Shown here piece after piece: positions 177-18,835 of a DNA stretch of 43,626 bases (positions are counted from its first letter, which is position 1; every line of letters starts with the position of its first letter). Origin of the DNA: Erysipelotrichaceae bacterium (GTDB lineage Bacteria > Bacillota_I > Bacilli_A > Erysipelotrichales > Erysipelotrichaceae); the NCBI GenBank assembly GCA_015058955.1, contig SVBJ01000015.1:1-43626 (forward strand). Direction: 5' to 3'. The position numbers and the translations under genes are program-made. The notes under the pieces were generated by a model that saw only the letters and a program-made list of their open reading frames with translations, had not been told where the DNA came from and did not search any database.

Positions 177-650
177 TTACAGCCACTTTGCCCCGTTAAG
201 CATTTCTTCCCACATTGGAAGATTCTCTTCCTTCAGGTTATCCCTGACATAGAAATGGAAATAATACAGGGCATCTTTTATCTTCAGGCAGAACGATTCA
301 CCGTACATAGTGAGGCCATCCTTGTCATAGTTATAACAGTAACCCTGAGCTTCTTTTCCGCCAATGGAAAGATAGCGGAAGCCCTGCAGCCTGTAATTGT
401 CATTACTCATGGCCTTGGCTACGACCTTTTCACTGCTGCGGGCGACATCCTTGGAATTCAGCAGCAGTCTGGCCATTGCATTGATCTTGGTCCAGGCTGC
501 ACTGATCAGCACATGCCTTTCCTCATCCCTGATCAGATCCCCGTTGCCTTCCTTAATGAAATTAAGTTCACTTCTTTCATCAGCACTCAGTACGTGAAAG
601 CCTTCGGGATAATACAGTTCAACAGCATTGTTCAGATTTATTGCGTTCAT
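177..650 (-). CDS. Hypothetical protein, 157 aa, possibly PsbP/DcrB-like
   Basis: A soluble-looking 157-residue protein without signal peptide or membrane segment. The N-terminal part carries a YYPEGF motif and the C-terminal part a run of aromatic beta-strand-like sequence (YYFHFYVRDN) before a short helix. This pattern recalls small PsbP/DcrB-like proteins, but no catalytic motif is visible and the family is not certain. It starts 21 bases after the DUF218 gene, with AAGGAAG a little upstream of the ATG, so it is probably the last gene of the operon that begins at 2941. No function can be assigned. Confidence 0.7.
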   Translation of the reverse strand: MNAINLNNAVELYYPEGFHVLSADERSELNFIKEGNGDLIRDEERHVLISAAWTKINAMARLLLNSKDVARSSEKVVAKAMSNDNYRLQGFRYLSIGGKEAQGYCYNYDKDGLTMYGESFCLKIKDALYYFHFYVRDNLKEENLPMWEEMLNGAKWL

Positions 651-671
651 ATTCTTAACACACTTCCTTTT

Positions 672-2141
672 CTATAGCACATTTGACAGATACTGCAGAT
701 GTGAGATCACCGTCATTACGATGATGATGACCAGCCGTATCGTCAGATGAGTCATTCTTTCATAATACAGGGTTGCTATGAATTCCCTGACAAAGGCATT
801 GATCCAGAAATAGCTTCTGGTAGGCGAGCCGGTTCCCTGTACCGGTACGTTCTGACGGTAAGCCAGAATGCCGGAACGGAACACATGGTAATTGGTCGTG
901 GAGAAGGCGATCTTCGGTTCCCCTTCACCGAAATGCTGACGGATCAGCTGCCGGGAATAACGGAAGTTTTCTTCGGTATTTACCGAACGGTCTTCCACGA
1001 TGATGTGATCAGCATCTATTCCCTGTGACAGCAGATAATTGCCCACGGCCTGACCTTCAGCCATGATCTCGTCATCTCCCCTGCCGCCTGAAGGGACAAA
1101 GATAACATCCTTCCCGCTGGCCTGTTTCTGCATCCGGGCAAACTGGAGGGCTTTATCCGCTCTCCCTTTTAACAGAGGAGTAAGCGATCCGTCATCTCTG
1201 ATCTGACAGCCCAGGATCATGATGTAATCCCTGTCAAAATCCGGAATGCCGAGGGCAGCCTTGACGGCCAGAATGATGGTAGCCAGCAGAATGCTTTCCA
1301 AATAGGAGATCAAGGTCAGGATGATGTTTCGCAGAGCCATTACGATGTACATGGTGGCTGCACCCTGATTGTGTACATCAATTGATGTCTGATTCCACAT
1401 CAGATATTCATCGATCAGATATACCCCTACCGTACCGATGATCAGAACCATACCCAGTGCACATCCCAGCATGTTGGTCAGTCTTCGCCCTTCCTTCTTC
1501 ATTAACTGGATGTTGCTCAGAGTAACCAGAACTGATGATACCAAAGCTACTGGCAGAATTACGAAGGAAAATGATGAGGCGTCACTCATGATATCTTCCA
1601 GATAACTATCCAGAGCGGAAAATCCGATGGCTGACCAGATCTGACCGATGATGATTGGAACTGTGAAGATGATGGTGCCCAGGTTCAGAATGTTATCGTA
1701 GTCAAAAAGGTTTACCGCCGTTTTCTCGCGGTATTTCCTCACCAGAAAATATATTACATAAGCCAGAAACAGACTCTGGGAAACAGGCATTATCCAGCCT
1801 CCCCTTAACTGTCCCAGATAGGTATTTATCATCAGGATATTTGGGAAATGGACATAGGCAGTATTCATATATCCGTATTCCCGCTGATAGTGTACCTCTA
1901 TGCTGGCCTTCCCCACGGATAAGGCCTTCAGGGTGATCTTAAGCATGTTATCCTCTATTACGGTATCCGTGATCGCTACATGTTCTGCAGACTGTACCAG
2001 TCTGATGTCCAGATCTTCCAGTTTTGTCCCGGCAGGCACACTGGTTTTCATGACACCGGTTCGGCCGAAAAACATGATGAAAGCAGCACATATCACCAGT
2101 AATATCCGTTCAATCAGCCATAATGAAGGGTTTTTCTTCAT
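672..2141 (-). CDS. DUF218 (SanA/YdcF/ElyC-like) multi-pass membrane protein
   Basis: A 489-residue integral membrane protein with a hydrophobic N-terminus, several further membrane segments over the first ~295 residues, and a C-terminal DUF218 domain at roughly residues 300-450. The domain starts with the strand DYIMILGCQ and contains VPSGGRGDD, the conserved SVNTEENF-type segment and STTNYHVFRSG. DUF218 proteins such as SanA and ElyC are linked to envelope integrity; the enzymatic activity is unsettled. A GTG at 2153 overlaps the upstream stop as GTGA, but ATG at 2141 has GAGAG five bases upstream and is preferred. The region between the first membrane segment and the next (~residues 32-95) is beta-rich and probably extracytoplasmic. 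Confidence 0.85.
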   Translation of the reverse strand: MKKNPSLWLIERILLVICAAFIMFFGRTGVMKTSVPAGTKLEDLDIRLVQSAEHVAITDTVIEDNMLKITLKALSVGKASIEVHYQREYGYMNTAYVHFPNILMINTYLGQLRGGWIMPVSQSLFLAYVIYFLVRKYREKTAVNLFDYDNILNLGTIIFTVPIIIGQIWSAIGFSALDSYLEDIMSDASSFSFVILPVALVSSVLVTLSNIQLMKKEGRRLTNMLGCALGMVLIIGTVGVYLIDEYLMWNQTSIDVHNQGAATMYIVMALRNIILTLISYLESILLATIILAVKAALGIPDFDRDYIMILGCQIRDDGSLTPLLKGRADKALQFARMQKQASGKDVIFVPSGGRGDDEIMAEGQAVGNYLLSQGIDADHIIVEDRSVNTEENFRYSRQLIRQHFGEGEPKIAFSTTNYHVFRSGILAYRQNVPVQGTGSPTRSYFWINAFVREFIATLYYERMTHLTIRLVIIIVMTVISHLQYLSNVL

Positions 2142-2149
2142 CCGATCTC

Positions 2150-2941
2150 TCACTCAAAAAAGCGGTATATTCTCTTCTTATAGTCAGGTGCCATATCAAA
2201 GGCAGCATGACCATAGCCATTATATACAAACATTTCTGCCTCCAGAAGACATTCTTTCAGTTCCTTATGTGCCTCACTTCCCAGTACGGCATCATCCCTG
2301 GCGCCCAGGATCAGTACCGGACAGTCAATGTTTTTTATTTCTTCCCTGATATCCAGTCCGTTCATTGACTTGGCCATGATCACAAAGCGGGACAGCTCTT
2401 CAGCCGTAACACTCTGACCGGCCTGAACCATCATGTCCTTAAAACTCTCAAAGGCAGCCTTCGGATAGATCTTTTCCCCGAAGTCCAGATAAAGGGCAAC
2501 CGCATCGCCTTTTTCAGCCAGGTTTATCCAGCTGCCCACCGTCTTTTCCATGAACTTATTTACACGGCAGGCTGCTGAACCGACAGCGATCATGCTGACT
2601 AGTTCAGGATGACGGGCTCCAATCAGTAAGCTCATTATTCCTCCCTGGGAAGCACCGAAAAGATTGATGTTTTCCAGTCCCAGCTGCTTGATGGCCAGGG
2701 CCGTATCATCAGCCATCTGATATATGCTGTAGCCTTCAGAAAGCTCATTACGGCGGTCAAAGACATAGACGGTATATTCACCCTTAAAGATGTCATAGGC
2801 CTGTGCAATGGCCTGGGCTGAAGCCATGACGCTTTGTACGCTTAATCCCGGCAGTATTACCATTGTTTTTTTACCCTGCCCGAAGCAGAAGTAATTCATG
2901 GAATATTCCGGTAGTTTTACTGTCTTTATTTCATAACTCAT
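2150..2941 (-). CDS. Alpha/beta hydrolase, 263 aa
   Basis: Compact alpha/beta hydrolase. The nucleophile elbow is GASQGG with Ser98, the acid is Asp216 or Asp217 in GARDDAV, and His245 in YGHAAF completes the triad. The oxyanion region is LPGLSV near residue 30. There is no signal peptide, so it should be cytoplasmic; the substrate is unknown. ATG at 2941 is chosen because AAAGGTG lies six bases upstream; GTG 2950 and ATG 2947 are in frame but overlap this site. It is the first gene of a three-gene operon, and its stop overlaps an in-frame GTG of the DUF218 ORF. Confidence 0.85.
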   Translation of the reverse strand: MSYEIKTVKLPEYSMNYFCFGQGKKTMVILPGLSVQSVMASAQAIAQAYDIFKGEYTVYVFDRRNELSEGYSIYQMADDTALAIKQLGLENINLFGASQGGIMSLLIGARHPELVSMIAVGSAACRVNKFMEKTVGSWINLAEKGDAVALYLDFGEKIYPKAAFESFKDMMVQAGQSVTAEELSRFVIMAKSMNGLDIREEIKNIDCPVLILGARDDAVLGSEAHKELKECLLEAEMFVYNGYGHAAFDMAPDYKKRIYRFFE

Positions 2942-3053
2942 ATCCATCACCTTTAATGTCTGTCCGAACCATTTATCCGCAATTGTCGGCTTTTTTCTAC
3001 TAATAATATTTTAATACATTCAGTTCGCTTGTCCATCGTCCAGCCATGTCAAA

Positions 3054-3073
3054 GTCCCGCTTTTCAGCGGGAC
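3054..3073 (-). terminator. Hairpin after the S33-type hydrolase gene
   Basis: GTCCCGC (3054-3060) pairs with GCGGGAC (3067-3073) around a six-base loop. On the minus strand it is followed only by TTTG, so it is a weak intrinsic terminator for the gene at 3094-4053. Confidence 0.55.
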
Positions 3074-3093
3074 CTGTCGTTTATAGGGTTTGC

Positions 3094-4053
3094 CTATTCT
3101 TCGTCGCTGTCGTAATACAGCCGATCAAAGACGATGTCATCGAAGAATTCAATGATTCCTTCATTGACAGTGTCCTTGAGTTCCATGTAGTTATGGATCT
3201 CATGACGGTAACCGCTGTAGAGCTTGGTCTTGACATCATGTCCGGTGTCCATCAGCCAGTTAGTGCACTGATATACGCCTGTGCCATACTGTCCGACCGG
3301 GTCCTGGTCGCCGGCAATATTATAAATCGGCAGACCAACAGGAACCTTCTTAGCCCATTCAATACCGGTAATATCCTTCATCATCTGGTTGAAGTACAGC
3401 CAGGCACGGTTGCTGGTCGGCTTGGTAAAGGCATCAAACGGGTCAGCAGCGTGGTCTTTCTGAACATACTCATCATCACAGATCCACTCATTGCCCAGCT
3501 TTACGCCTTCACTGCAGCGGGCAAACATCCAGCCCATGAATTTAGCACCCAGGGTAGGATCGGACTCTTCACCCTTGCCCTCATCAACCATCTTCTGTAA
3601 TAAGTCAATGTTTTCATCCAGACCAGGCCATACGCCAGTCGTACCGCAGATCGTTGCCCCATCCAGATCCTCACCGAATCTGGCCATGTACATTCTGGTA
3701 ATGAAGGAACCCATGCTGTGGCCGAACATGAAATACGGCAGACCAGGATACATGTCAGCTACCAGATCATGCAGTTTCTTTTCATCATAGACCATGGTCT
3801 CAAAGCCCTTGTCGCCCCAGTCGCCCCATCTGTCGTTTTCCACAGCTGTCTTGCCGTGTCCGACATGGTCATCAGCGGCTACGATGTATCCGGCTTCCAC
3901 CAGCCGGGTGATCATGTAGAGATAACGGCGTGAATGCTCACCGAAACCGTGAATCAGCTGAATGATTCCCAGAGGTTCTGAAGCAGGAACATAGACCCAT
4001 CCGTAAACCGTGTCGCGCTCATTAAAAGACGTGAATTTTACTTCATGTAACAT
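3094..4053 (-). CDS. Lysophospholipase/monoacylglycerol lipase-like hydrolase (S33 family fold)
   Basis: A 319-residue alpha/beta hydrolase of the Hydrolase_4 (serine aminopeptidase S33/PldB-like) type. It shows the HGFGEHSRRY oxyanion motif (residues 35-44), DHVGHGKT at 62-69, and the nucleophile motif GHSMG with Ser113. GDQDP in the C-terminal third supplies the acid and GYRHEIHN the histidine. Family members hydrolyse monoacylglycerols or lysophospholipids; the substrate here is not shown. The start is supported by AAAGGA upstream of the ATG. A 12-base palindrome (4071-4082) lies in the leader. The gene sits between two other hydrolases on the same strand. Confidence 0.88.
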   Translation of the reverse strand: MLHEVKFTSFNERDTVYGWVYVPASEPLGIIQLIHGFGEHSRRYLYMITRLVEAGYIVAADDHVGHGKTAVENDRWGDWGDKGFETMVYDEKKLHDLVADMYPGLPYFMFGHSMGSFITRMYMARFGEDLDGATICGTTGVWPGLDENIDLLQKMVDEGKGEESDPTLGAKFMGWMFARCSEGVKLGNEWICDDEYVQKDHAADPFDAFTKPTSNRAWLYFNQMMKDITGIEWAKKVPVGLPIYNIAGDQDPVGQYGTGVYQCTNWLMDTGHDVKTKLYSGYRHEIHNYMELKDTVNEGIIEFFDDIVFDRLYYDSDEE

Positions 4054-8067: not shown

Positions 8068-8364
8068 ATGATAATAGAAAAACAGGTAACAGATTCAGCC
8101 ATGACCATCAAGGTCATCGGACGCCTGGATTCAGTAACCTCTCCGCAGCTGGAAGAAGTTACCAGCAAGGAACTGGAAGGGATCACTGATCTGACCTTTG
8201 ACTTTTCCGAACTGGAATATATCTCTTCTGCCGGCTTAAGAGTAATTCTGATTTCCCAGAAGACCATGAACAATCAGGGAAAGATGCGCGTAACCGGCAT
8301 CAATCAGGAAGTCAGAGACATTTTTGAAGTTACCGGGTTTGTGGATATCATTGATGTTGAATAA
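8068..8364 (+). CDS. STAS-domain protein (anti-sigma factor antagonist-like)
   Basis: A stand-alone 98-residue STAS domain of the SpoIIAA/RsbV type. The phospho-site motif is YISSAGLR, with Ser54 in the position of the serine phosphorylated in RsbV/SpoIIAA; DFSELEY precedes it and a VTGFVDII helix follows. In known systems the unphosphorylated STAS protein binds the HATPase kinase and frees that kinase's partner. Here the probable kinase/phosphatase is encoded two genes downstream, with no sigma factor nearby. CAGGAGG precedes the ATG. It is the first gene of a five-gene operon; the next begins 16 bases after its stop. Confidence 0.93.
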   Translation: MIIEKQVTDSAMTIKVIGRLDSVTSPQLEEVTSKELEGITDLTFDFSELEYISSAGLRVILISQKTMNNQGKMRVTGINQEVRDIFEVTGFVDIIDVE

Positions 8365-8380
8365 TTGGGGGGATTTTAAA

Positions 8381-9472
8381 ATGAAGTTTGAAAAGGAAAT
8401 CATTGAAGGCGTACAGGTGATAAAACCGTACGGACGCATCGACAGCAATACCTCACACGAGTTTGAGGAAATACTGAACCGGGAAATAGAACCGGGCCGT
8501 GACGTGGAGATCGACTTCCGTGAAGCCGTCTATATTTCTTCATCAGGATTACGTTGTCTGCTGGGTTTAAGAAAGCGTCTTGGTGACGATGCCAGCATCG
8601 TTTTCACTCATGTCAATGATGTCATCATGGATGTCTTTGAAATGACCGGCTTTACCGATCTATTTGAAGTAGTCAGGATGGACATGAACAATCCTGACAC
8701 CAGAGTCATCTTCTTCGACATTGACGGTACCCTTCTGTCACATAAATCCGGAAGCGTTCCGGAAAGCACCGTCCGTGCCATTAAGAAGCTGCAGGCCAGA
8801 GGAATCAAGGCAGTCATCGCCACCGGCCGTGACCTGGTTGAAATGGAAAAGCTCCCATTACAGGGCATAAAGTTTGACGGTTACCTGACTCTTAACGGCA
8901 ACATCTGTCTGGATGAAAACAAGAAGATGTTCGCCGGCAATGAAATAGCTCCTGACGAAGTGGAAGTACTGGTCAACATCTTCAAGGCCGGCCGCATTCC
9001 ATTCGTTCTGATCGGTGAAAAGCAGAGATACATAAACTACGTTGACGATGTCGTCATTCAGACCCAGATGTCAACACACGGCACCATTCCTGACATCGGG
9101 GAATACCATGGTGAAAAGATCTACCAGTGCCTGGCCTTCGTCAACAAGGAGATCAGACAGAAGCTGGATGACCTTTTGGACAAGTGCGTCATTACCAGCT
9201 GGAATGATACCGGCATTGACATCATCGCCAAGACCGGCGGCAAGGATGCCGGAATTCAGAAGTTCCTTGACAGAGAACATATCACCAGAAGCCAGACCAT
9301 GGCCTTCGGTGACGGGGAAAATGACATGGCAATGCTGCGCTTTGCCGGAATCGGCGTAGCCATGGGCAACGGCAGCGACCTGCTGAAGCGGAAGGCAGAC
9401 TATGTCACGGCATCAGTTGATGACGACGGCATTGAAAAAGCCCTGTTGCACTTCGGATTAATTGAAGAATAA
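8381..9472 (+). CDS. STAS domain fused to a Cof-type HAD phosphatase
   Basis: Residues 1-100 form a STAS domain with YISSSGLR and candidate phospho-serine Ser54. From about residue 106 a complete Cof/YidA-type HAD hydrolase follows: motif I FFDIDGT (Asp113, Asp115), motif II IATGR (Thr148), motif III lysine near Lys288 in GGKDAG, and motif IV GDGEND (Asp311, Asp315), with the C2 cap between. All catalytic residues are present. HAD proteins of this group dephosphorylate sugar phosphates or cofactors. The STAS part would let phosphorylation state or partner binding control the enzyme. GGGGGGA before ATG 8381 fixes the start; an in-frame upstream start at 8324 overlaps the previous gene and lacks a site. 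Confidence 0.92.
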   Translation: MKFEKEIIEGVQVIKPYGRIDSNTSHEFEEILNREIEPGRDVEIDFREAVYISSSGLRCLLGLRKRLGDDASIVFTHVNDVIMDVFEMTGFTDLFEVVRMDMNNPDTRVIFFDIDGTLLSHKSGSVPESTVRAIKKLQARGIKAVIATGRDLVEMEKLPLQGIKFDGYLTLNGNICLDENKKMFAGNEIAPDEVEVLVNIFKAGRIPFVLIGEKQRYINYVDDVVIQTQMSTHGTIPDIGEYHGEKIYQCLAFVNKEIRQKLDDLLDKCVITSWNDTGIDIIAKTGGKDAGIQKFLDREHITRSQTMAFGDGENDMAMLRFAGIGVAMGNGSDLLKRKADYVTASVDDDGIEKALLHFGLIEE

Positions 9473-11613
9473 TGTCTGTACTTATGACAATTGAGAACAT
9501 AACTGATAAGGTAAATAACCAAAAAAAGAAAAAATCACTGAGCACGAAGATGTTCACCATCATTCTGCTCTTTTCGCTTGTTTTAAGTGTTGCCGCCATT
9601 CTATTCGGCTTCAATCTGTATTCCACGGCGGTCTATAACCAGTACGCAGGAATTGCCAATAACATTTCCAGGACATCAGCTATTGTCATTACCGAACAGG
9701 ATGCCCTGCACTACTGGAAAGATGTCTATAACATTTACAGGATCACTCCTGAAGAAGTGCACCAGACCAAGGGCAGTCAAACTTACCGTCTGCTGTATTC
9801 ACCGGTAATTGACCGCAATCTGGTCAACATGCAGATAATGCTCTCCAAGATTGCCAAGGAAAACAAGCTGATGAAGATCGGTCTGACGATCTTTGACAAA
9901 GAATCACGCCGACTGATAAACGTTTACAGTTCCGACCGCAGTGAGCCTGTCGGTAACTGGTATCCTGCGGCCAGCCGCCGCAGCAGTAACATCATCATAC
10001 ACCGCCAGGCTGAAACGCAGTGGGACACTGATCTGCCTTACATGCTGGTCAGGGATGATAATGGTTACTACTGTACCAGCTGGACCAGGGTTGCCGAGGA
10101 TGAAGATACCATTGTCATGGTCATGACAGATGTTGACATGTACATGGTTGACGACGATGCCAAAGCCTTCCTGGTACAGTTCGTGCTGTTGCTGGCAACT
10201 CTGACACTGGGAGTATTTCTAATCATCAGCCGCCGTCTGAAGAAAAAGGTCGTTCAGCCGATTGAGGACATGAACCAGGCCGCCAAGAACTACATTGCCG
10301 ACAAGGCCGACGGTCTGCCGGATTCCTATCACTTCCAGAAGCTTGAGATCCACACCAACGATGAGATCGAAAGTCTGGCTGATACCTTTGCCGACATGGA
10401 AAAGCAGATCAGTGAATACCTTAATAACCTGACCAGAGCCGCTACGGAAAAGGAAAGAATCAGATCCGAACTGAATCTGGCGGCTCAGATCCAGCGCAGT
10501 TCCCTGCCTTCCGTCTTCCCGCCATACCCTGACATCAGAGAATTTGACATCTATGCCAGCGTTGACCCTGCCAAGGAAGTCGGCGGTGACTTCTATGACT
10601 TCTTCCTGATCGATGATGATCATCTGGCCATGGTCGTAGCAGATGTCTCCGGCAAAGGAATTCCGGCCGCTCTGTTCATGATGGCCTGCAAGATCGTCAT
10701 CAATGACCTGGCAACCTTAGGCATTACTGACCCGGCGGAGATACTTTACAAGGTCAATAACCGCATAGTCAAAAACAATACCCTGGACATGTTTGTCACT
10801 GTCTGGCTGGGTATTCTGCAGATCTCAACAGGAAAGATCCTGGCGGCTAATGGCGGTCATGAATATCCTTGCCTGATGCGAGCCGGAAAGAAATTTGAAA
10901 TGATCAAGGACAGACACGGTCTGGTATTGGGCGGCATGGAAAACGTTAATTACTACACCTATGAGATCCAGATGAACCCGGGTGATGTCCTGTTTACCTA
11001 CAGTGACGGTGTTCCTGAATCTACCAATACATCCAACCAGCTGTTCGGCAACGACAGAATGCTGAATTCACTTAACAATGACACGGCTGCTTCCGTCAGA
11101 CAGCTGACACTCAATGTCAAGAAAGACATTGATGCCTTTGTCCAGGAAGCTCCGCAGTTCGATGACATAACAATGCTGGCATTACGCTACAATGGAGGCG
11201 ATAATATGAATGAAATGACAGTTGAAGCCATAATCGACAACATACCGGCAGTAACCGCATTCGTGGATGAAAAGCTGGAGGCTCTGAACTGCCCGATGAG
11301 AGCAGAGACCCAGATCGATGTTGCCATTGATGAACTCTTCAGCAACATTGCCAAATATGCCTATCATCCGGATACCGGACCGGCAACAGTAAGGGTGGAA
11401 GTTGAAAATGATCCGCTGGCTGTTGTCATCACTTTCATTGATAACGGCATTCCTTATGATCCGCTCTCTCATAACGATCCTGACACTACCCTTTCTGCAG
11501 AAGCCCGAAGCATCGGCGGACTGGGAATCTACCTGGTCAAGAAGACCATGGACGATATCACTTATGAGTACAAGAACGGACAGAACATTCTCAGAATAAA
11601 GAAAGAGATTTAA
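9472..11613 (+). CDS. Membrane receptor with SpoIIE/PP2C phosphatase and RsbW-like kinase domains
   Basis: A 713-residue sensor protein. TM1 (about 28-46) and TM2 (about 234-252) enclose a ~185-residue extracytoplasmic sensor region. A HAMP-like segment (253-310) and a linker helix follow. The SpoIIE-type PP2C phosphatase domain spans about 340-570, with metal ligands in GGDFYD (371-376), Asp391 in VADVSGKG, Asp512 in SDGVPE and DDIT (564-567). The last ~135 residues are a HATPase_c_2 kinase domain with N-box ELFSN (Glu621, Asn625), DNG (657-659) and GGLGIYLVK (682-690). It should both phosphorylate and dephosphorylate STAS partners. The start codon overlaps the previous stop as TAATG. Dual-domain precedents are SypE and HsbR. 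Confidence 0.93.
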   Translation: MSVLMTIENITDKVNNQKKKKSLSTKMFTIILLFSLVLSVAAILFGFNLYSTAVYNQYAGIANNISRTSAIVITEQDALHYWKDVYNIYRITPEEVHQTKGSQTYRLLYSPVIDRNLVNMQIMLSKIAKENKLMKIGLTIFDKESRRLINVYSSDRSEPVGNWYPAASRRSSNIIIHRQAETQWDTDLPYMLVRDDNGYYCTSWTRVAEDEDTIVMVMTDVDMYMVDDDAKAFLVQFVLLLATLTLGVFLIISRRLKKKVVQPIEDMNQAAKNYIADKADGLPDSYHFQKLEIHTNDEIESLADTFADMEKQISEYLNNLTRAATEKERIRSELNLAAQIQRSSLPSVFPPYPDIREFDIYASVDPAKEVGGDFYDFFLIDDDHLAMVVADVSGKGIPAALFMMACKIVINDLATLGITDPAEILYKVNNRIVKNNTLDMFVTVWLGILQISTGKILAANGGHEYPCLMRAGKKFEMIKDRHGLVLGGMENVNYYTYEIQMNPGDVLFTYSDGVPESTNTSNQLFGNDRMLNSLNNDTAASVRQLTLNVKKDIDAFVQEAPQFDDITMLALRYNGGDNMNEMTVEAIIDNIPAVTAFVDEKLEALNCPMRAETQIDVAIDELFSNIAKYAYHPDTGPATVRVEVENDPLAVVITFIDNGIPYDPLSHNDPDTTLSAEARSIGGLGIYLVKKTMDDITYEYKNGQNILRIKKEI

Positions 11614-11615
11614 TT

Positions 11616-12200
11616 ATGGATCAGAGTTTATTTAATGAAGCACTGCTGTTTGCGCTTAAAGCCCATGATGGGGTAACCCGCAAGAACAGCACCAATCCTT
11701 TCATTCTCCATCCCATGGAAGTAGCTACGATCGTCGCCTCAATGACGGAGAACATCGAAGTAGTGATTGCTGCCCTGCTGCATGACACTGTTGAAGATGC
11801 CGGGGTAAGCCTGGAAGAAATTGCGGATAAATTCGGAGTCAAGGTTACCATGCTGGTACAGTCCGAGACTGAAGACAAGAGAAGAGACATTCTGCCGGAA
11901 GATTCCTGGTACATCCGCAAGGAAGAATCACTGAATGTGTTAAGGACCACCAGGGATCCGGAAGTAAAAATCCTCTGGCTGGCTGACAAGCTGTCCAACA
12001 TCCGCTCATTCTACCGCATGCATGCCGTCAAAGGTGATGACATGTGGCTGGATTTCCATCAGAGAGATCCGAAAATGCAGCAATGGTATTACCGCAAGGT
12101 TGCCGCTTACACCGCTGAACTGGCTGATACCGCAGCCTATCATGAATATTGTTTCTTGTTAGAAAGACTTTTCAAGGAGTTACCAAATGGCACTGATTAA
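11616..12200 (+). CDS. HD-domain (p)ppGpp hydrolase-like protein
   Basis: A 194-residue stand-alone HD hydrolase resembling the hydrolase half of RelA/SpoT. The motif order matches: AHDGVTRKN and the metal histidine His32 in LHPMEVA, LLHDTVEDAG with His56-Asp57 and Glu60-Asp61, and Asp124 in LADKLSNIR. No synthetase, TGS or ACT domain is present, so it belongs with small alarmone hydrolases (MESH1-like). Pyrophosphate removal from (p)ppGpp is the family expectation; another nucleotide is possible. It starts two bases after the receptor gene and its last 14 bases overlap the STAS-kinase gene, pointing to translational coupling. Confidence 0.85.
   Translation: MDQSLFNEALLFALKAHDGVTRKNSTNPFILHPMEVATIVASMTENIEVVIAALLHDTVEDAGVSLEEIADKFGVKVTMLVQSETEDKRRDILPEDSWYIRKEESLNVLRTTRDPEVKILWLADKLSNIRSFYRMHAVKGDDMWLDFHQRDPKMQQWYYRKVAAYTAELADTAAYHEYCFLLERLFKELPNGTD
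12174..12179 (+). promoter_or_regulatory. RBS inside the HD gene for the STAS-APH gene
   Basis: AAGGAG lies seven bases before ATG 12187, inside the coding sequence of the HD protein. It fixes the start of the downstream gene and the 14-base overlap. Confidence 0.8.
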
Positions 12201-13368
12201 TGTAAAAAATGAAAACGGCCTGTTAACCATCGGCTTAACTGGACACATTGATTCCAATAATGCACCTGCAGTTGAACAGGAGATCACAGATGCCCGCGAG
12301 GCAAACGAATTTGAAAATGTCGTCGTTGACTGCAGTGACCTGGAGTACATTTCCAGTGCCGGCTTACGTATCATCCTGCGACTGAAGAAGCTGTATCCTG
12401 ATCTTAAGGTCATCAATGTCTCCAGTGAAGTATATGAGATCTTTGACATTACCGGATTTACCGAAATGATGGAAGTCCGCAAGGCCTACAGACAGCTGTC
12501 GGTTGAAGGCTGTGAGATCATTGGTCAGGGTGCCAACGGCAAGGTATACCGCATTGATCCGGATACCGTTTTGAAGGTCTATCATGACGTCAATGCCCTG
12601 GACGACATTAAGAGAGAAAGAGAACTGGCCAGAACTGCCCTGATCTTAGGCATTCCAACAGCCATTCCATATGATGTCGTCAAGGTTGGTGATGTTTTCG
12701 GCTCAGTCTTTGAACTTATCAATGCTGAAACCTTTGCCAAGCTGATTCAGAATGACCATGCTTCTCTTGATGATGTAGTCCGCATGTCTGTTGATCTGCT
12801 CAAGACGATCCACTCTACCGAAGTCAAGCCTGGCAGCATGCCTGACATGAAGACCGTTGTCAAAAACTGGGCAGCCTTCCTGAGTGAATATCTGGAACAG
12901 GAAGACTATCAGAAACTGCATGATCTGGTCGATGCCGTACCTGATGATCTGCACATGATCCATGGTGACTATCACCTCAAAAACATCATGCTGCAGAACA
13001 ATGAACCTCTGCTGATCGACATGGATACCCTGTGTCACGGCCATCCGGTATTTGAGTTCGCTTCAATCTTCAATGCCTATCAGGGCTACAGTGAAATGAA
13101 CCATGACAACATGATGGACTTCTTAGGAATTCCATACGAAATGGGTGCCGAGATCTGGAATAAGACCCTTCATTTCTACTTTGATGACAAGACTGAAGAA
13201 GAAATTCAGGACATTGCCGACAAGGCCAAACTGGTCGGTTATACCAGAATCATGAGAAGAACCATCAGAAGAAACGGCTTCAATACTGAACTAGGCCGCA
13301 GGGAAATTGAAAACGCCAAAAACCACATTCACGAACTGGTGAACAGGCTGGATTCCCTGGCTTTCTAG
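12187..13368 (+). CDS. STAS domain fused to an APH-like (aminoglycoside phosphotransferase fold) kinase
   Basis: Residues 1-98 are a STAS domain with YISSAGLR and candidate phospho-serine Ser57. Residues ~105-393 form a kinase of the APH/choline-kinase fold: glycine loop GQGANGKVY (113-121), Lys130 in VLKVY, Brenner motif HGDYHLKN (259-266, catalytic Asp261) and LLIDMD (275-280, metal Asp). All catalytic motifs are kept, so it should be active. Several kinases of this group resemble the TIGR02172 family, whose substrate is unknown; antibiotic resistance is unlikely from context. It is the last gene of the operon before a strong terminator. Confidence 0.9.
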   Translation: MALINVKNENGLLTIGLTGHIDSNNAPAVEQEITDAREANEFENVVVDCSDLEYISSAGLRIILRLKKLYPDLKVINVSSEVYEIFDITGFTEMMEVRKAYRQLSVEGCEIIGQGANGKVYRIDPDTVLKVYHDVNALDDIKRERELARTALILGIPTAIPYDVVKVGDVFGSVFELINAETFAKLIQNDHASLDDVVRMSVDLLKTIHSTEVKPGSMPDMKTVVKNWAAFLSEYLEQEDYQKLHDLVDAVPDDLHMIHGDYHLKNIMLQNNEPLLIDMDTLCHGHPVFEFASIFNAYQGYSEMNHDNMMDFLGIPYEMGAEIWNKTLHFYFDDKTEEEIQDIADKAKLVGYTRIMRRTIRRNGFNTELGRREIENAKNHIHELVNRLDSLAF

Positions 13369-14001: not shown

Positions 14002-14337
14002 CTAGAGAATCGCAATCAGAGCCATCAGCATCCTTCTGGGAATATGACCATCGATTCGATAAAGCCAGCGACCATTAGCAGAATTAATGCGGTCCCCGTC
14101 AATTCGGTAAACCCAGCGTCCGTTTGCATCAGTTACATAATCACCATCGAGTCTGTACAGCCAGCGGCCATTGGCATAATTAATGCGGTCTCCGTCAATT
14201 CTGTATTCCCATCTGCCGCTGCGGTCACAGACATAATCACCATCCAGCCTGTACAGCCAGCTGCCGTTTGCGCTGTTAATTCGATCTCCGTCAATCTGGA
14301 ATACCCAGCGCCCGTTTGCATCAGTCACATAAACCAT
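14002..14337 (-). CDS. Six-fold 16-residue repeat protein, beta-flower-like
   Basis: A 111-residue protein made almost entirely of six exact 16-residue units (residues 5-100). Trp recurs at 11, 27, 43, 59, 75 and 91; Gly at 9, 25, 41, 57, 73 and 89; Asp-Gly at 16-17, 32-33 and every 16 thereafter. The consensus is x-x-A-N-G-R-W-x-Y-R-x-D-G-D-x-x. Units alternate between two forms, giving three 32-residue super-repeats. There is no signal peptide. The pattern resembles the small beta-flower fold described from predicted structures, with each unit a beta-hairpin; that match is from memory. The last 11 residues (RRMLMALIAIL) are hydrophobic and outside the repeat. GAGGTG precedes the ATG. Function unknown. 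Confidence 0.85.
   Translation of the reverse strand: MVYVTDANGRWVFQIDGDRINSANGSWLYRLDGDYVCDRSGRWEYRIDGDRINYANGRWLYRLDGDYVTDANGRWVYRIDGDRINSANGRWLYRIDGHIPRRMLMALIAIL
14038..14325 (-). repeat. Coding tandem repeat, three 96-bp (six 48-bp) units
   Basis: The DNA of the repeat protein consists of 288 bases, in 48-base units that pair into 96-base super-repeats. Odd units resemble one another more than their neighbours, suggesting growth by duplication of a two-unit block. Confidence 0.85.
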
Positions 14338-14411
14338 GTTTTCACCTCAATTATTACTGTTTTTCTTACTGATTAAATTATAATCCATTCTTCAGCAGTT
14401 TTCACCTCACG

Positions 14412-14438: not shown

Positions 14439-15503
14439 CTAATTGTTTCTGGCAAACTGTGCCTGAAGCTTTTCATAGAATTTCGGATCATCCTGACCAT
14501 AGCGCATCTGGCATTCATCCAGGGCAGCCTTGTAAAGGGTGACATTGATGTGATCATCGATATTAATCTGTCTGGCTTCTTCATCCAGCAGACCCAGTCG
14601 CTCCATGTAATTCCAGGCACGCCTTACTGAAGTCTTCATTGGATCCGCATTCAATTCAAAGCGAGGATTGTCAAGATATGATCTGATAACCTGTTCATCG
14701 AGATTGATCTGCTTTACCGTAGCCTTGACCGTTTCCTCATGATGAGCATCATAGTATGCCCAGGCTCTGATCCAGGCTCTTAACAGGGCCTTGACGGTGT
14801 TTGGATTGGCGTTGACCCATGATGTCAGAGCTTCAGCGCGGCAACATGAATATGCCGGCAGAACGTCATCAGCGTATGTCAGGATCTTCAGTTCCGGATC
14901 ATTCAGTACTTCATAATTCAGGGCAGTACCTACCAGAGCAAAGTCAGCCTCACCGTTTCTGACGGCTTCAATGCGGTCCATCTGATCTTCCGGATTATAC
15001 CAGGTGATCTGCGTAAGAGGATCATATCCCATGTCCAGCAAAGGTCCGGTGATGGCATACATGTTCGGTTCGCAGGCCATCGTCTTGCCGATGAGGTCCT
15101 CAATCCCGTTCCATGGAGTTTCCACTCTGGCAAAGATCGGCATGCATCCGGACAGCAGATAACCTCCGAAGATGGTCAGATCCAGACCGAATGATATTTC
15201 CTGCAGAGGCAGGTTGGTTCCCGAGTTGGAAGCTATGTCAATCCTGCCGGCTCTGATGCCTTCAAAGACTTCAGCGTCGGTTTCTACGGAAACATATTCA
15301 ACTCTGATACCTTCTTCTTCCAGATATCCCTGGCTTTCAGCTATGGAATTGAGGATGTGTCCTGATTCGTTCAGTGCCAGACGGACAACCGCTGTTTCAG
15401 GAACATCTTTTCTTTCTTCATCTTTTTTATCAGGATTTATGTCGTAGGAGCATCCGGAAAGAACCAGCATGAATGTAATAATCATTAACATCAGTTTTTT
15501 CAT
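14439..15503 (-). CDS. Solute-binding lipoprotein (NMT1/SsuA-like), orphan
   Basis: A 354-residue lipoprotein. The signal peptide MKKLMLMIITFMLVLSGC ends in lipobox LSGC with Cys18. The mature part has the two-lobe periplasmic-binding fold of the NMT1/SsuA/TauA type: RLALNESGHILNSIA, a FEGIRAGRIDIAS motif, DLIGKTMACE and NGEADFALVGTA. The family binds thiamine precursors, sulfonates, nitrate or similar ligands; which is unknown. No ABC permease or ATPase gene is near. It starts 14 bases after the MscS-like gene with GGAGGGG upstream, so the two are co-transcribed. An upstream in-frame reading from 15671 only shadows the channel gene. It may deliver a ligand to the channel's sensor regions. 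Confidence 0.88.
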   Translation of the reverse strand: MKKLMLMIITFMLVLSGCSYDINPDKKDEERKDVPETAVVRLALNESGHILNSIAESQGYLEEEGIRVEYVSVETDAEVFEGIRAGRIDIASNSGTNLPLQEISFGLDLTIFGGYLLSGCMPIFARVETPWNGIEDLIGKTMACEPNMYAITGPLLDMGYDPLTQITWYNPEDQMDRIEAVRNGEADFALVGTALNYEVLNDPELKILTYADDVLPAYSCCRAEALTSWVNANPNTVKALLRAWIRAWAYYDAHHEETVKATVKQINLDEQVIRSYLDNPRFELNADPMKTSVRRAWNYMERLGLLDEEARQINIDDHINVTLYKAALDECQMRYGQDDPKFYEKLQAQFARNN

Positions 15504-15517
15504 TGTCTTTCCCCTCC

Positions 15518-18500
15518 TTACTTCTTTGTCTCTGCCGGTATCTGGCTGGCAGCAACCGGCTTGACACTGGCAACCGGCTGATTGGCGATCTTGATGCCAT
15601 TGCGCTGGAAGATCTGCAGCAATGACTTGTTGAGATATCTGTTGATGCCGCGGACATCCTTTTCCGAACATCTGGCTATGACGGTAACAGTGTAGCGTCT
15701 CTCAGCCAGTTCGGAAACACCCAGACTGGTTGGTCCGTCCAGGATCTGTCCGTTGTCTTCCTTAAGCAGCGGCAGTTCGCGGTTCAGTACTTCCTCAACG
15801 ATATCGATATCCTGTCCATACTCCAGACCGATCGTGGCAGAAGCGACAGAAGTTTCCTTGGTCATGTTAAGTACTCCGGAGATCTCACTGTTGTTGAAGA
15901 TCTTGACGTTGCCGCCTCCGGAGATCTTGGTCGTTCTTAAGCCGATATCGGTAACCGTACCGCGGAATCCGTTAATTGTAACAATGTCGCCGACACGGAA
16001 TTCACCTTCAAAAACGATGAAGATACCGGCGATGATATCCTTGATCAGACTCTGAGCACCCAAGCCTATGACCAGAGACAGGATTCCGGCACTGGCCAGC
16101 AGATTAGGTGAATCGACTCCAAATAAATACAGACAGTAGAACAGAGCACCGATCGTTCCGCCGTATTTGACAATTGACAGTAACAGATGGCCGATCGTCT
16201 CACCCCGGGTTCCCAGCAGTGAAGTACACAGACGGACCGGGATCCTGAACAGTTCAATGGCAATCAGGGTCATTAAGATGACCATGATGGCAGCGCTCAG
16301 GGCAAACAGGTTAGGACTTCTGTCCCATCCTCTGGACAGAATGTAATTGACGATGGAATCATTGGAAGTTCTGTTGATTCCGACAGCTGACAGTACAAAG
16401 TACAGCACCGGGATGGCAATGATCCATCCCAGAATGGATACAAGCTTCATTTCCGGTGAACGCTCATTCCAAGGAATGCGTTGATTATTCCAGCGGATCT
16501 GGGCCATTGTCGTACTGGCAAAGCGGCCTGACGGCAGGATTATGCTGAAAATCGATGAATTCAGATTATCATCGCCTTTCACATCACTGATCAGATCATA
16601 GACTTCATCATTGACGGTGGAAGTAATCGTAACCGACAGTAACAGCAGTGCAATCATGAACAGACATACACCTGCTGTGATCAGAGAAATTGAGCCGCGG
16701 CTGGTATACATGCTTGCCTGCGGTAAGGCTGTAGCGATGAAATATTTATCGATGAAACGGAATACCTGGAAATATGATACGCCGTTTATCCTGTTGAATC
16801 CGTAATAAACATCTCCGGTAAAGGCCTTTGATGATACCCCAAGCTCAGCAGCGGTTTTTCCGATGCTGGCCTTTACCGGAGAATACACACAGGTGTGTTC
16901 CGGAGTATTGTCAAACATGATCATGGAGCCTCCTGACAGCATTTCCGTTGACAGGATGGCATCGGCATTGGTGTCAGCCATAATCGAGCTGACCAGTTCG
17001 CTGTCCAGAGCTATCTGCAGCATAGATCTGTGTCTGGTAATGTTGCCGGCCTTGGTAACGTTGCTGACACCTTCCCGGGCACAGGCTTCTTCATAGGCAT
17101 ATCTGGAAACATAGACGGTTTCGCCATTGGCAGCCTTGGTGGTAAAGTAATGCATTGAGATGCCGAAATACTGGGAATTTACCCCAAGATCATCGGTCAT
17201 GGCTGTCTGCAGATAACTGTCAGTTTTTCCTTCCAGTACCCGGCGGAACGGATATGAATGATCATCAGGGTTCTGACTCAGAGAAAAGAACCAGTTGCCT
17301 GTATTGGTCGCAATCGTATGACCGTCTTCATCGAAGATGTAAATTGCCTCAATGCGGTTTTCATCACAAAGCTGCTGCAGTATTGCGGAATTGGCTACAG
17401 ATTTCAAACGGTTGCCCTCATCATCGATCAGGAACTGTCTGTTGCCTTTGTCATCGTAAATGCTGTGATAGAATTCTGAACCGGTATTAAGAACTTCCGG
17501 GCTTTCCTCCGCGAAGAAGGACAGAAGCTTGGCGGTTGAAATGAACCGGGATTTATAGTAATCTTCAATGACTTCACGGCTTTCAATGCTTTCTTCATAA
17601 CGGCCGATTACTTCCTGCAGGATGACGTTGGACTTGTCAATTCCTTCGGTTATTTCCAGAAGAGTCTGAGTATAGAAAGTAATGGCATATACCACAATGA
17701 TGCCTATCATCATTAACGGCATTACCTTTTTAAAGACTGATTTGTTGAAATACATTGGTTTTTCCGGATCGCTGCTCAGCATGATCTTTTCCGGCTTGAT
17801 GTTATTGCGGATAAAGTCATTTCTGACAAATACGGCATAAAGCAGGCACAGCGTCATTACGATAATGAATCCCATAACTGACCATAACAGAACGTACTTG
17901 TCACGGGAACCCATGGTCTTTGATCTGGCAGCAGCCACGATCACGGTATCGTCACCAAACGCCCTGGAAGTACAGTAGTACTTCTCCCCGAGAATGGTCT
18001 GAACACCCCGGTATCCGTCGGTCATGATGTCCTGGTTAAGTCCGGTATTATAGGCATTCTGTCCTGTCAGCAGGTCAGTGCCGTTTTTATAGTACATGAA
18101 CAGGTCATCTGTTCTGTTAACCGCAAACAGGAAGCCGTCATTGATGACAGACATACGGCTTAATACTGCGGACACATCTTTCAGAGAAGCGATGCGCTCG
18201 TCCAGAGCCCAGGAACTGGTCCCCATCGCCAGAACATACTGGCTGTCACCATAGAAATACGGCATTGCATAATAATAGTAGGTTCCATAAATGTTCTTTA
18301 CCAGAACCGGCTCGGAATTGTGACTCATTTTCAGCATCCGGTTAAGGTTATCCTGCGTCACAAAAGCAGTTGTGGCCAGGTTACGGCCGAACAGTTCTTC
18401 ATTGGAAGTTACCACAACATTGCCATTTTCATCCAGCAGAAACAGATTTGATATTCCTGCCGGTGAAGAGAGTTCGGTAAACATCTCGGCACGAACATTG

Positions 18501-18835
18501 TTTTCGTTGGCCATCATTTTTTCAAAAAGGCCTTTTTTAAACAGCAGTTCTATGTCATCCATGGTATTCCAGTTTCCCTGGTGGAAGATATTGGTCAGGC
18601 TTTCGGAGTTTTCGGTATTTTTGTCCAGAATGGAAACCACTTCTGTCAGAGCCAGGTTGTTATTCTCCTGCTGCTTGATTATTGAAGTCTTTGACTGAAC
18701 ATTGCTGAGGAAAGCATATATTGCAATTGCACCGAAAAGCATCATCACCATGTTTGCGATGATGTTGGCCGTAACGATCCTCTCGTTTCTGGTCAATTTC
18801 TGATTTTCCATGATTTCTGTCTGATTGTTATCCAT
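15518..18835 (-). CDS. MscS-family channel with two extracytoplasmic sensor regions
   Basis: A very long MscS-type protein (1105 aa; E. coli MscS has 286). TM1 (~23-44) and TM2 (~313-336) enclose a ~270-residue Cache-like sensor region. TM3 (~370-388) and TM4 (~716-737) enclose a second ~325-residue one. Then come a short cytoplasmic linker, TMs at ~797-819, 842-866 and 881-907, and the pore helix and beta domain: LLASAGILSLVIGLGAQSL (912-930), VFEGEFRVGD (941-950) and INGFRGTVTDIGLRTTK (954-970). The C-terminal cytoplasmic alpha/beta domain is present. It could release solutes when membrane tension or an extracellular ligand changes. It begins the operon with the binding lipoprotein. Sensor domain names are inferred from topology. 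Confidence 0.88.
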   Translation of the reverse strand: MDNNQTEIMENQKLTRNERIVTANIIANMVMMLFGAIAIYAFLSNVQSKTSIIKQQENNNLALTEVVSILDKNTENSESLTNIFHQGNWNTMDDIELLFKKGLFEKMMANENNVRAEMFTELSSPAGISNLFLLDENGNVVVTSNEELFGRNLATTAFVTQDNLNRMLKMSHNSEPVLVKNIYGTYYYYAMPYFYGDSQYVLAMGTSSWALDERIASLKDVSAVLSRMSVINDGFLFAVNRTDDLFMYYKNGTDLLTGQNAYNTGLNQDIMTDGYRGVQTILGEKYYCTSRAFGDDTVIVAAARSKTMGSRDKYVLLWSVMGFIIVMTLCLLYAVFVRNDFIRNNIKPEKIMLSSDPEKPMYFNKSVFKKVMPLMMIGIIVVYAITFYTQTLLEITEGIDKSNVILQEVIGRYEESIESREVIEDYYKSRFISTAKLLSFFAEESPEVLNTGSEFYHSIYDDKGNRQFLIDDEGNRLKSVANSAILQQLCDENRIEAIYIFDEDGHTIATNTGNWFFSLSQNPDDHSYPFRRVLEGKTDSYLQTAMTDDLGVNSQYFGISMHYFTTKAANGETVYVSRYAYEEACAREGVSNVTKAGNITRHRSMLQIALDSELVSSIMADTNADAILSTEMLSGGSMIMFDNTPEHTCVYSPVKASIGKTAAELGVSSKAFTGDVYYGFNRINGVSYFQVFRFIDKYFIATALPQASMYTSRGSISLITAGVCLFMIALLLLSVTITSTVNDEVYDLISDVKGDDNLNSSIFSIILPSGRFASTTMAQIRWNNQRIPWNERSPEMKLVSILGWIIAIPVLYFVLSAVGINRTSNDSIVNYILSRGWDRSPNLFALSAAIMVILMTLIAIELFRIPVRLCTSLLGTRGETIGHLLLSIVKYGGTIGALFYCLYLFGVDSPNLLASAGILSLVIGLGAQSLIKDIIAGIFIVFEGEFRVGDIVTINGFRGTVTDIGLRTTKISGGGNVKIFNNSEISGVLNMTKETSVASATIGLEYGQDIDIVEEVLNRELPLLKEDNGQILDGPTSLGVSELAERRYTVTVIARCSEKDVRGINRYLNKSLLQIFQRNGIKIANQPVASVKPVAASQIPAETKK

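Follow-up and report, generated by a model that had tools for sequence, protein, structure and literature searches.

The question raised by this locus is whether a short reading frame with a tryptophan at every sixteenth residue encodes a protein, and whether its repeats close into a ring. The locus was analysed within a stretch of DNA of 43,626 nucleotides, the whole of which is referred to here as the window. An earlier note, made from the letters, had proposed a beta-flower-like protein of six perfect 16-residue repeats at positions 14002-14337. That interval is exact in plus-strand numbering, and the strand that encodes the protein is the minus strand (Table 1). In the beta-flower fold, hairpin petals are arranged as a shallow barrel of fourfold, fivefold, or sixfold symmetry (Durairaj et al. 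2023, PMC10584680).

Repeat architecture

The translation of the minus strand from 14337 to 14002, MVYVTDANGRWVFQIDGDRINSANGSWLYRLDGDYVCDRSGRWEYRIDGDRINYANGRWLYRLDGDYVTDANGRWVYRIDGDRINSANGRWLYRIDGHIPRRMLMALIAIL, consists of six 16-residue units in the order ABABAB, followed by a short hydrophobic tail. Tryptophan is found at residues 11, 27, 43, 59, 75, and 91. When the protein was compared with itself, 42 of 95 residues were identical at a lag of 16 and 49 of 79 at a lag of 32. The sequence was also shuffled 20,000 times, and the best count over lags 8-39 had a mean of 12.6 and a maximum of 22. Both observed counts are far above this maximum, which bears out the tryptophan period given in the earlier note, and the stronger identity at lag 32 agrees with its alternating units. 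The word "perfect" does not fit, since the units are regular with 7-14 of 16 residues identical: 10-14 between units of the same type and 7-10 between units of opposite type. Run on the whole window, TRF reported a single array (period 96, 2.8 copies, 74% matches). Units 1, 3, and 5 carry the tip motifs DANG, DRSG, and DANG. Units 2, 4, and 6 retain the glycine, but have SANG or YANG at the tip.

Coding status and expression signals

Judged by its sequence, the minus-strand ORF is a real gene, because intact homologues exist and pN/pS between species is 0.08-0.36; in most of the pairs compared, synonymous sites are almost saturated. A frame broken in relatives had been raised as a possibility; the frame proved unbroken, with full-length, stop-free homologues in 10 other genomes. 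An open frame could also arise by chance in a repetitive DNA element that holds no protein-coding gene, and the plus strand over the same region is likewise open, for 127 aa. We consider this explanation almost inconceivable, since the differences among same-type units fall mostly at synonymous codons, the homologues preserve the frame at the pN/pS values given above, and a ribosome-binding site is present, a Shine-Dalgarno-like GAGGTG being found immediately 5' of the ATG. The 127-aa plus-strand frame was itself considered as a gene and rejected; the minus-strand frame is the gene. It is probably its own transcription unit, because it has a promoter-like site and a terminator-like hairpin upstream.

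Table 1. Features of the window, in plus-strand coordinates.
Feature	Position	Strand	Type or basis
STAS-HAD-like phosphatase fusion	8324-9472	+	Named by reading
SpoIIE phosphatase + HATPase_c_2	9472-11613	+	Pfam
HD_4 protein	11616-12200	+	Pfam
STAS-APH-type phosphotransferase fusion	12187-13368	+	Pfam
Gene for 111-aa protein, predicted six-unit beta-flower	14337..14002	-	ATG at 14337, stop 14002-14004; ORF and translation
Unit 1 YVTDANGRWVFQIDGD	14284..14331	-	A type; shares 40/48 nt with unit 5 and differs from unit 1 of relatives
Unit 2 RINSANGSWLYRLDGD	14236..14283	-	B type
Unit 3 YVCDRSGRWEYRIDGD	14188..14235	-	A type
Unit 4 RINYANGRWLYRLDGD	14140..14187	-	B type
Unit 5 YVTDANGRWVYRIDGD	14092..14139	-	A type
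Unit 6 RINSANGRWLYRIDGH	14044..14091	-	B type
C-terminal tail IPRRMLMALIAIL	14005..14043	-	Helix at residues 101-110 (DSSP, both models); proposed barrel plug
Putative ribosome-binding site GAGGTGAAAAC	14338..14352	-	Directly upstream of ATG; read from sequence
Promoter-like site GTGAAA - 17 nt - TATAAT	14377..14405	-	10/12 consensus match only
Terminator-like stem-loop	14417..14432	-	Between upstream NMT1/THI5-like gene and beta-flower gene

Predicted structure

With a 21-sequence alignment, the best AlphaFold2 model had a pLDDT of 95.5 and a pTM of 0.87, and the five models (94.0-95.5) were in agreement. Strands were predicted at residues 2-6, 11-16, 19-22, 27-32, 35-38, 43-48, 51-54, 59-64, 67-70, 75-80, 83-86, and 91-96, and a helix at 101-110. 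Without an alignment, the five models differed widely in confidence and one was confident (pLDDT 92.2). This best single-sequence model agrees with the alignment-based model, and 12 strands arranged as six hairpins are seen in both.

Among solved structures, VIA-align placed 1ZXU well ahead of any other. For the first model Z was 8.8 over 100 aligned residues (rmsd 3.6; next match 4.3) and for the second 8.1 over 97 (rmsd 3.4; next match 4.0), and the aligner's own notes say that models lacking a clear match commonly reach a best Z of 7-8. The alignment to 1ZXU spans the full chain and extends into the C-terminal helix. We infer that the strands close into a ring, because 1ZXU is a closed barrel matched over the full length, and the helix would lie inside this ring, because the alignment runs into it. 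Foldseek gave no significant match in the PDB for either model and nothing significant among viral models. Sequence matches to PDB entries (a flagellin hook motif, an anti-CRISPR, and others) were set aside, as they apparently resulted from repeat composition or chance.

The beta-flower-like fold suggested in the earlier note is thus supported by the prediction of 12 strands and a C-terminal helix, by 1ZXU as the standout match, and by sub-threshold matches to beta-flower Pfam models. As far as models can show, the fold is very probably a beta-flower, and the main explanation as a whole, fold and architecture together, is likely. Periodic tryptophan and glycine repeats are also typical of open arrays, which would not close into a ring, such as a solenoid, a WG- or MORN-like array, or a cell-wall-binding-like array. 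Annotation as cell wall-binding or MORN repeats is sometimes given to beta-flowers (PMC10584680), and weak structural matches to Rhs/teneurin shells were found with VIA-align. However, Pfam gave no match to MORN, choline-binding, or WG repeats, and the number of units is not open-ended but six in 21 of 21 aligned relatives. The units are followed by a conserved hydrophobic tail helix, and the top structural match has a barrel that is closed, all of which makes an open array very unlikely. A closed beta-flower is the reading followed below.

Relation to known beta-flowers and Tubby-like barrels

Beta-flowers have 8, 10, or 12 short antiparallel strands that form 4, 5, or 6 petals, and 12 strands in six petals are predicted here. 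Many beta-flowers enclose a C-terminal hydrophobic helix, and a semi-conserved [DNEQ]XXG motif is found at the hairpin tip (PMC10584680). In the window's protein the motif occurs in units 1, 3, and 5, the most distant relatives have [ED]xxG, and the C-terminal helix (MLMALIAIL, 101-110) is hydrophobic and conserved. The earlier note took six petals to be an uncommon number. This was not upheld, as fourfold to sixfold flowers have been described (PMC10584680), PF21786 is the Pfam family '6-fold beta flower protein', beside PF21785 (5-fold) and PF21784 (4-fold), and every aligned relative has six units.

Comparison with the beta-flower families yielded matches to their Pfam models, all of them sub-threshold. 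The window's protein had no match to PF21786, and its relatives, scanned singly, reached at most 26.3 bits against a cut-off of 34. Nothing passed this cut-off in 392 genomes of the phylum, and controls were likewise without a match. The scores for PF21785 (Bflower_2, 25.3 bits) and PF21784 (Bflower, 22.2 bits) were below the cut-offs of 38 and 25. Because no Pfam beta-flower model passes its cut-off, the protein is best assigned not to PF21786 but to a divergent subfamily of a known fold, one that lacks a model of its own and occurs in gut Erysipelotrichaceae and in other families of the class. With sixfold beta-flowers it would share petals around a shallow barrel, 12 strands, the tip glycine, and the C-terminal hydrophobic helix. 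It differs from them in scoring below all three cut-offs, in its very regular repeats, in having tryptophan beyond the petal tip and not Tyr/Phe on the near side, and in having no lipoprotein signal.

Beta-flowers and Tubby share one Pfam clan (PMC10584680), which is CL0395, and circular permutation between flowers and Tubby has been described (PMC10584680). The LURP-one-related proteins (PF04525; 1ZXU, Arabidopsis AT5G01750) and the Tubby C-terminal domain have a 12-stranded barrel around a hydrophobic helix, as is predicted here. In comparison with these barrels, the window's protein has a much shorter chain, its strands and loops are short, and its sequence has internal sixfold symmetry. 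LURP-one-related proteins gave the whole-chain structural match, and the LOR model (PF04525) scored 27.2 bits, above its cut-off of 24.5, a total summed from short repeat matches. A full-length match to this 187-position model was absent, the best stretch covering model positions 25-56 only, and two close relatives scored 21.0 and 17.3 bits, below the cut-off.

The picture of the beta-flower fold is unchanged by this protein, whose predicted fold and petal number are both known ones. What it adds is a six-petal flower that is compact, highly regular, and predicted with confidence, and that has relatives with other petal numbers at the same locus. As its units are nearly symmetric, it would lend itself well to solving a beta-flower structure or to protein design.

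Relatives and distribution

Close homologues were found in two genera of Erysipelotrichaceae, and the homologue records that carry names belong to genomes of this family from the jejunum of goat and roe deer. Every relative of the window's type is free-standing, with 111-117 aa. The tail is kept in all W-type relatives, and its helix is conserved across genera, even in versions with one or four units. Three more genomes of the family (G271, G157, G180) encode six 17-residue units resembling YIKDYSSGRRLYEIDG and a helix. They share the six units, a similar tail helix, and the same DG turn; their units differ by one added residue, by GRR where the window's protein has GRW, and by an aromatic at unit position 5.

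Among 392 genomes sampled across the phylum, 14 others gave a match, each of them from a different family than Erysipelotrichaceae but within its class. Ten of these proteins were aligned and have six 16-residue units, mostly with Ile or Tyr at the tryptophan position. Unit position 5 is Tyr or Phe in these class-level relatives and small in the window's type, which has tryptophan at position 9, across the tip turn. From this alignment, the tip aromatic seems to have changed sides.

A second beta-flower gene was not found in the genome to which the window belongs. A mobile-element origin is unsupported, as no true homologue turned up in collections of phages and plasmids. Matches to a Shewanella TraG and a Serratia phage were 24-27% identical (E 3e-3 to 2e-2), IMG/VR gave no homologue, and matches in PHROGs were weak and mostly without function.

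Several relatives have features of their own. One six-unit protein (L021, in G161) has lost the tryptophan in units 1-3 (Arg, Cys, Arg) and has some altered Asp-Gly turns; its tail helix is conserved and its constraint is the weakest of the set (pN/pS 0.27-0.36). Two larger relatives, L069 and L072, were read as having apparent N-terminal membrane spans, flower-like repeats, and a hydrophobic C-terminal tail, and L072 weakly matches the 8xMP membrane family. Around the flower gene at L039 (G166), at 485-3839 and 9744-10052, there are short proteins with double-glycine-like leaders (ETSKVAGG, EELEEVSGG). This is suggestive of a peptide-natural-product locus, and was not seen at the other flower loci.

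Possible function

To our knowledge, no function is known for beta-flowers. As a small stand-alone protein, the one in the window would fold into six two-stranded hairpins, the petals of a shallow 12-stranded barrel, with the channel plugged by the hydrophobic C-terminal helix as in described sixfold flowers and Tubby/LURP-one barrels. Going by the fold and the relatives only, its site of action might be the inner face of the cell membrane. There, a ring of petal-tip aromatics (Trp at unit position 9 in the window's protein, Tyr/Phe at unit position 5 in relatives), together with nearby arginine, could contact lipid head groups. Lipid could be bound or sensed by the helix and the hydrophobic channel. 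This membrane-surface role is the best single guess, made because of the Tubby-like fold, the tip aromatics, the nearby arginine, and the apparently membrane-anchored L069 and L072.

Another possible explanation is that the beta-flower binds other proteins in the cytosol, where it could act as an inhibitor, an adaptor, or a small scaffold, and that the helix is no more than its structural core. The sequence has no signal peptide or lipobox, and all relatives of its type are free-standing. Their alignment shows conserved hydrophobic strand positions with variable alternate positions, and the net charge of the protein is only +1, which also makes electrostatic membrane binding less obvious. Pointing away from protein binding are the apparently anchored relatives and the lipid-binding members in the clan of the nearest solved fold (PMC10584680). 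We hold the protein-binding explanation as tentatively as its counterpart: a peripheral membrane or lipid-binding role is possible by analogy, with less than even chances, and a protein-binding role is equally open.

Changes in petal number

Unit 1 is of a YVTD type in the window and of a RINRS type in relatives. The window's unit 1 shares 14 of 16 residues and 40 of 48 bases with its own unit 5, and only 3-7 of 16 residues with unit 1 of relatives. Because it resembles unit 5 and not its counterparts, the strict ABABAB order is, on this sequence comparison, derived in the window's lineage, unit 1 having been replaced by a unit-5-like copy. The replacement probably occurred through recombination between units.

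Variants in repeat number, which the earlier note had suggested looking for, were found in related species. In G003, the closest relative, the gene at this locus lies between the same neighbours and encodes 31 residues, made up of one unit and the same tail. Partly as judged by eye, this unit begins like unit 1 and finishes like unit 6. In genus g3 the flower gene is flanked by a MATE-like transporter and a Sua5-like gene in both G169, where it has four units, and G173, where it has six; G184 shares the MATE side. Collapse by the assembler is a less likely but possible source of the one-unit gene: the longest exact repeat within the window's gene is only 14 nt, short for an assembler to collapse, but any further units of G003 may have differed from those in the window, and the G003 genome is fragmented and 68% complete.

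It is improbable, though conceivable, that petal number is labile, with recombination producing six-, four-, and one-petal genes at orthologous loci and the 31-residue gene perhaps being expressed and self-assembling from several copies. If true, these genes would be a natural series for the evolution of closed repeat barrels from single hairpins.

Genomic neighbourhood

In the window, the gene lies beside those for an NMT1/THI5-like lipoprotein and for a nitroreductase. The flower genes of G001 and G007 adjoin different genes, the neighbours of relatives' loci having been named by reading their sequences. A functional operon was considered and rejected, as no neighbour is conserved across genera.

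Other genes near the locus were noted. A 1105-aa protein encoded at 15518..18835 (-) has an MscS-type channel domain near its C-terminus and a long, sensory-looking N-terminal part. The reading frame of this protein runs into that of the NMT1/THI5-like gene, taken at its longest (14439-15671). The gene run at 8324..13368 (+) resembles a partner-switching signalling cluster with unusual fusions (Table 1), and in G005 an apparent STAS-type gene is likewise found beside that genome's nitroreductase.
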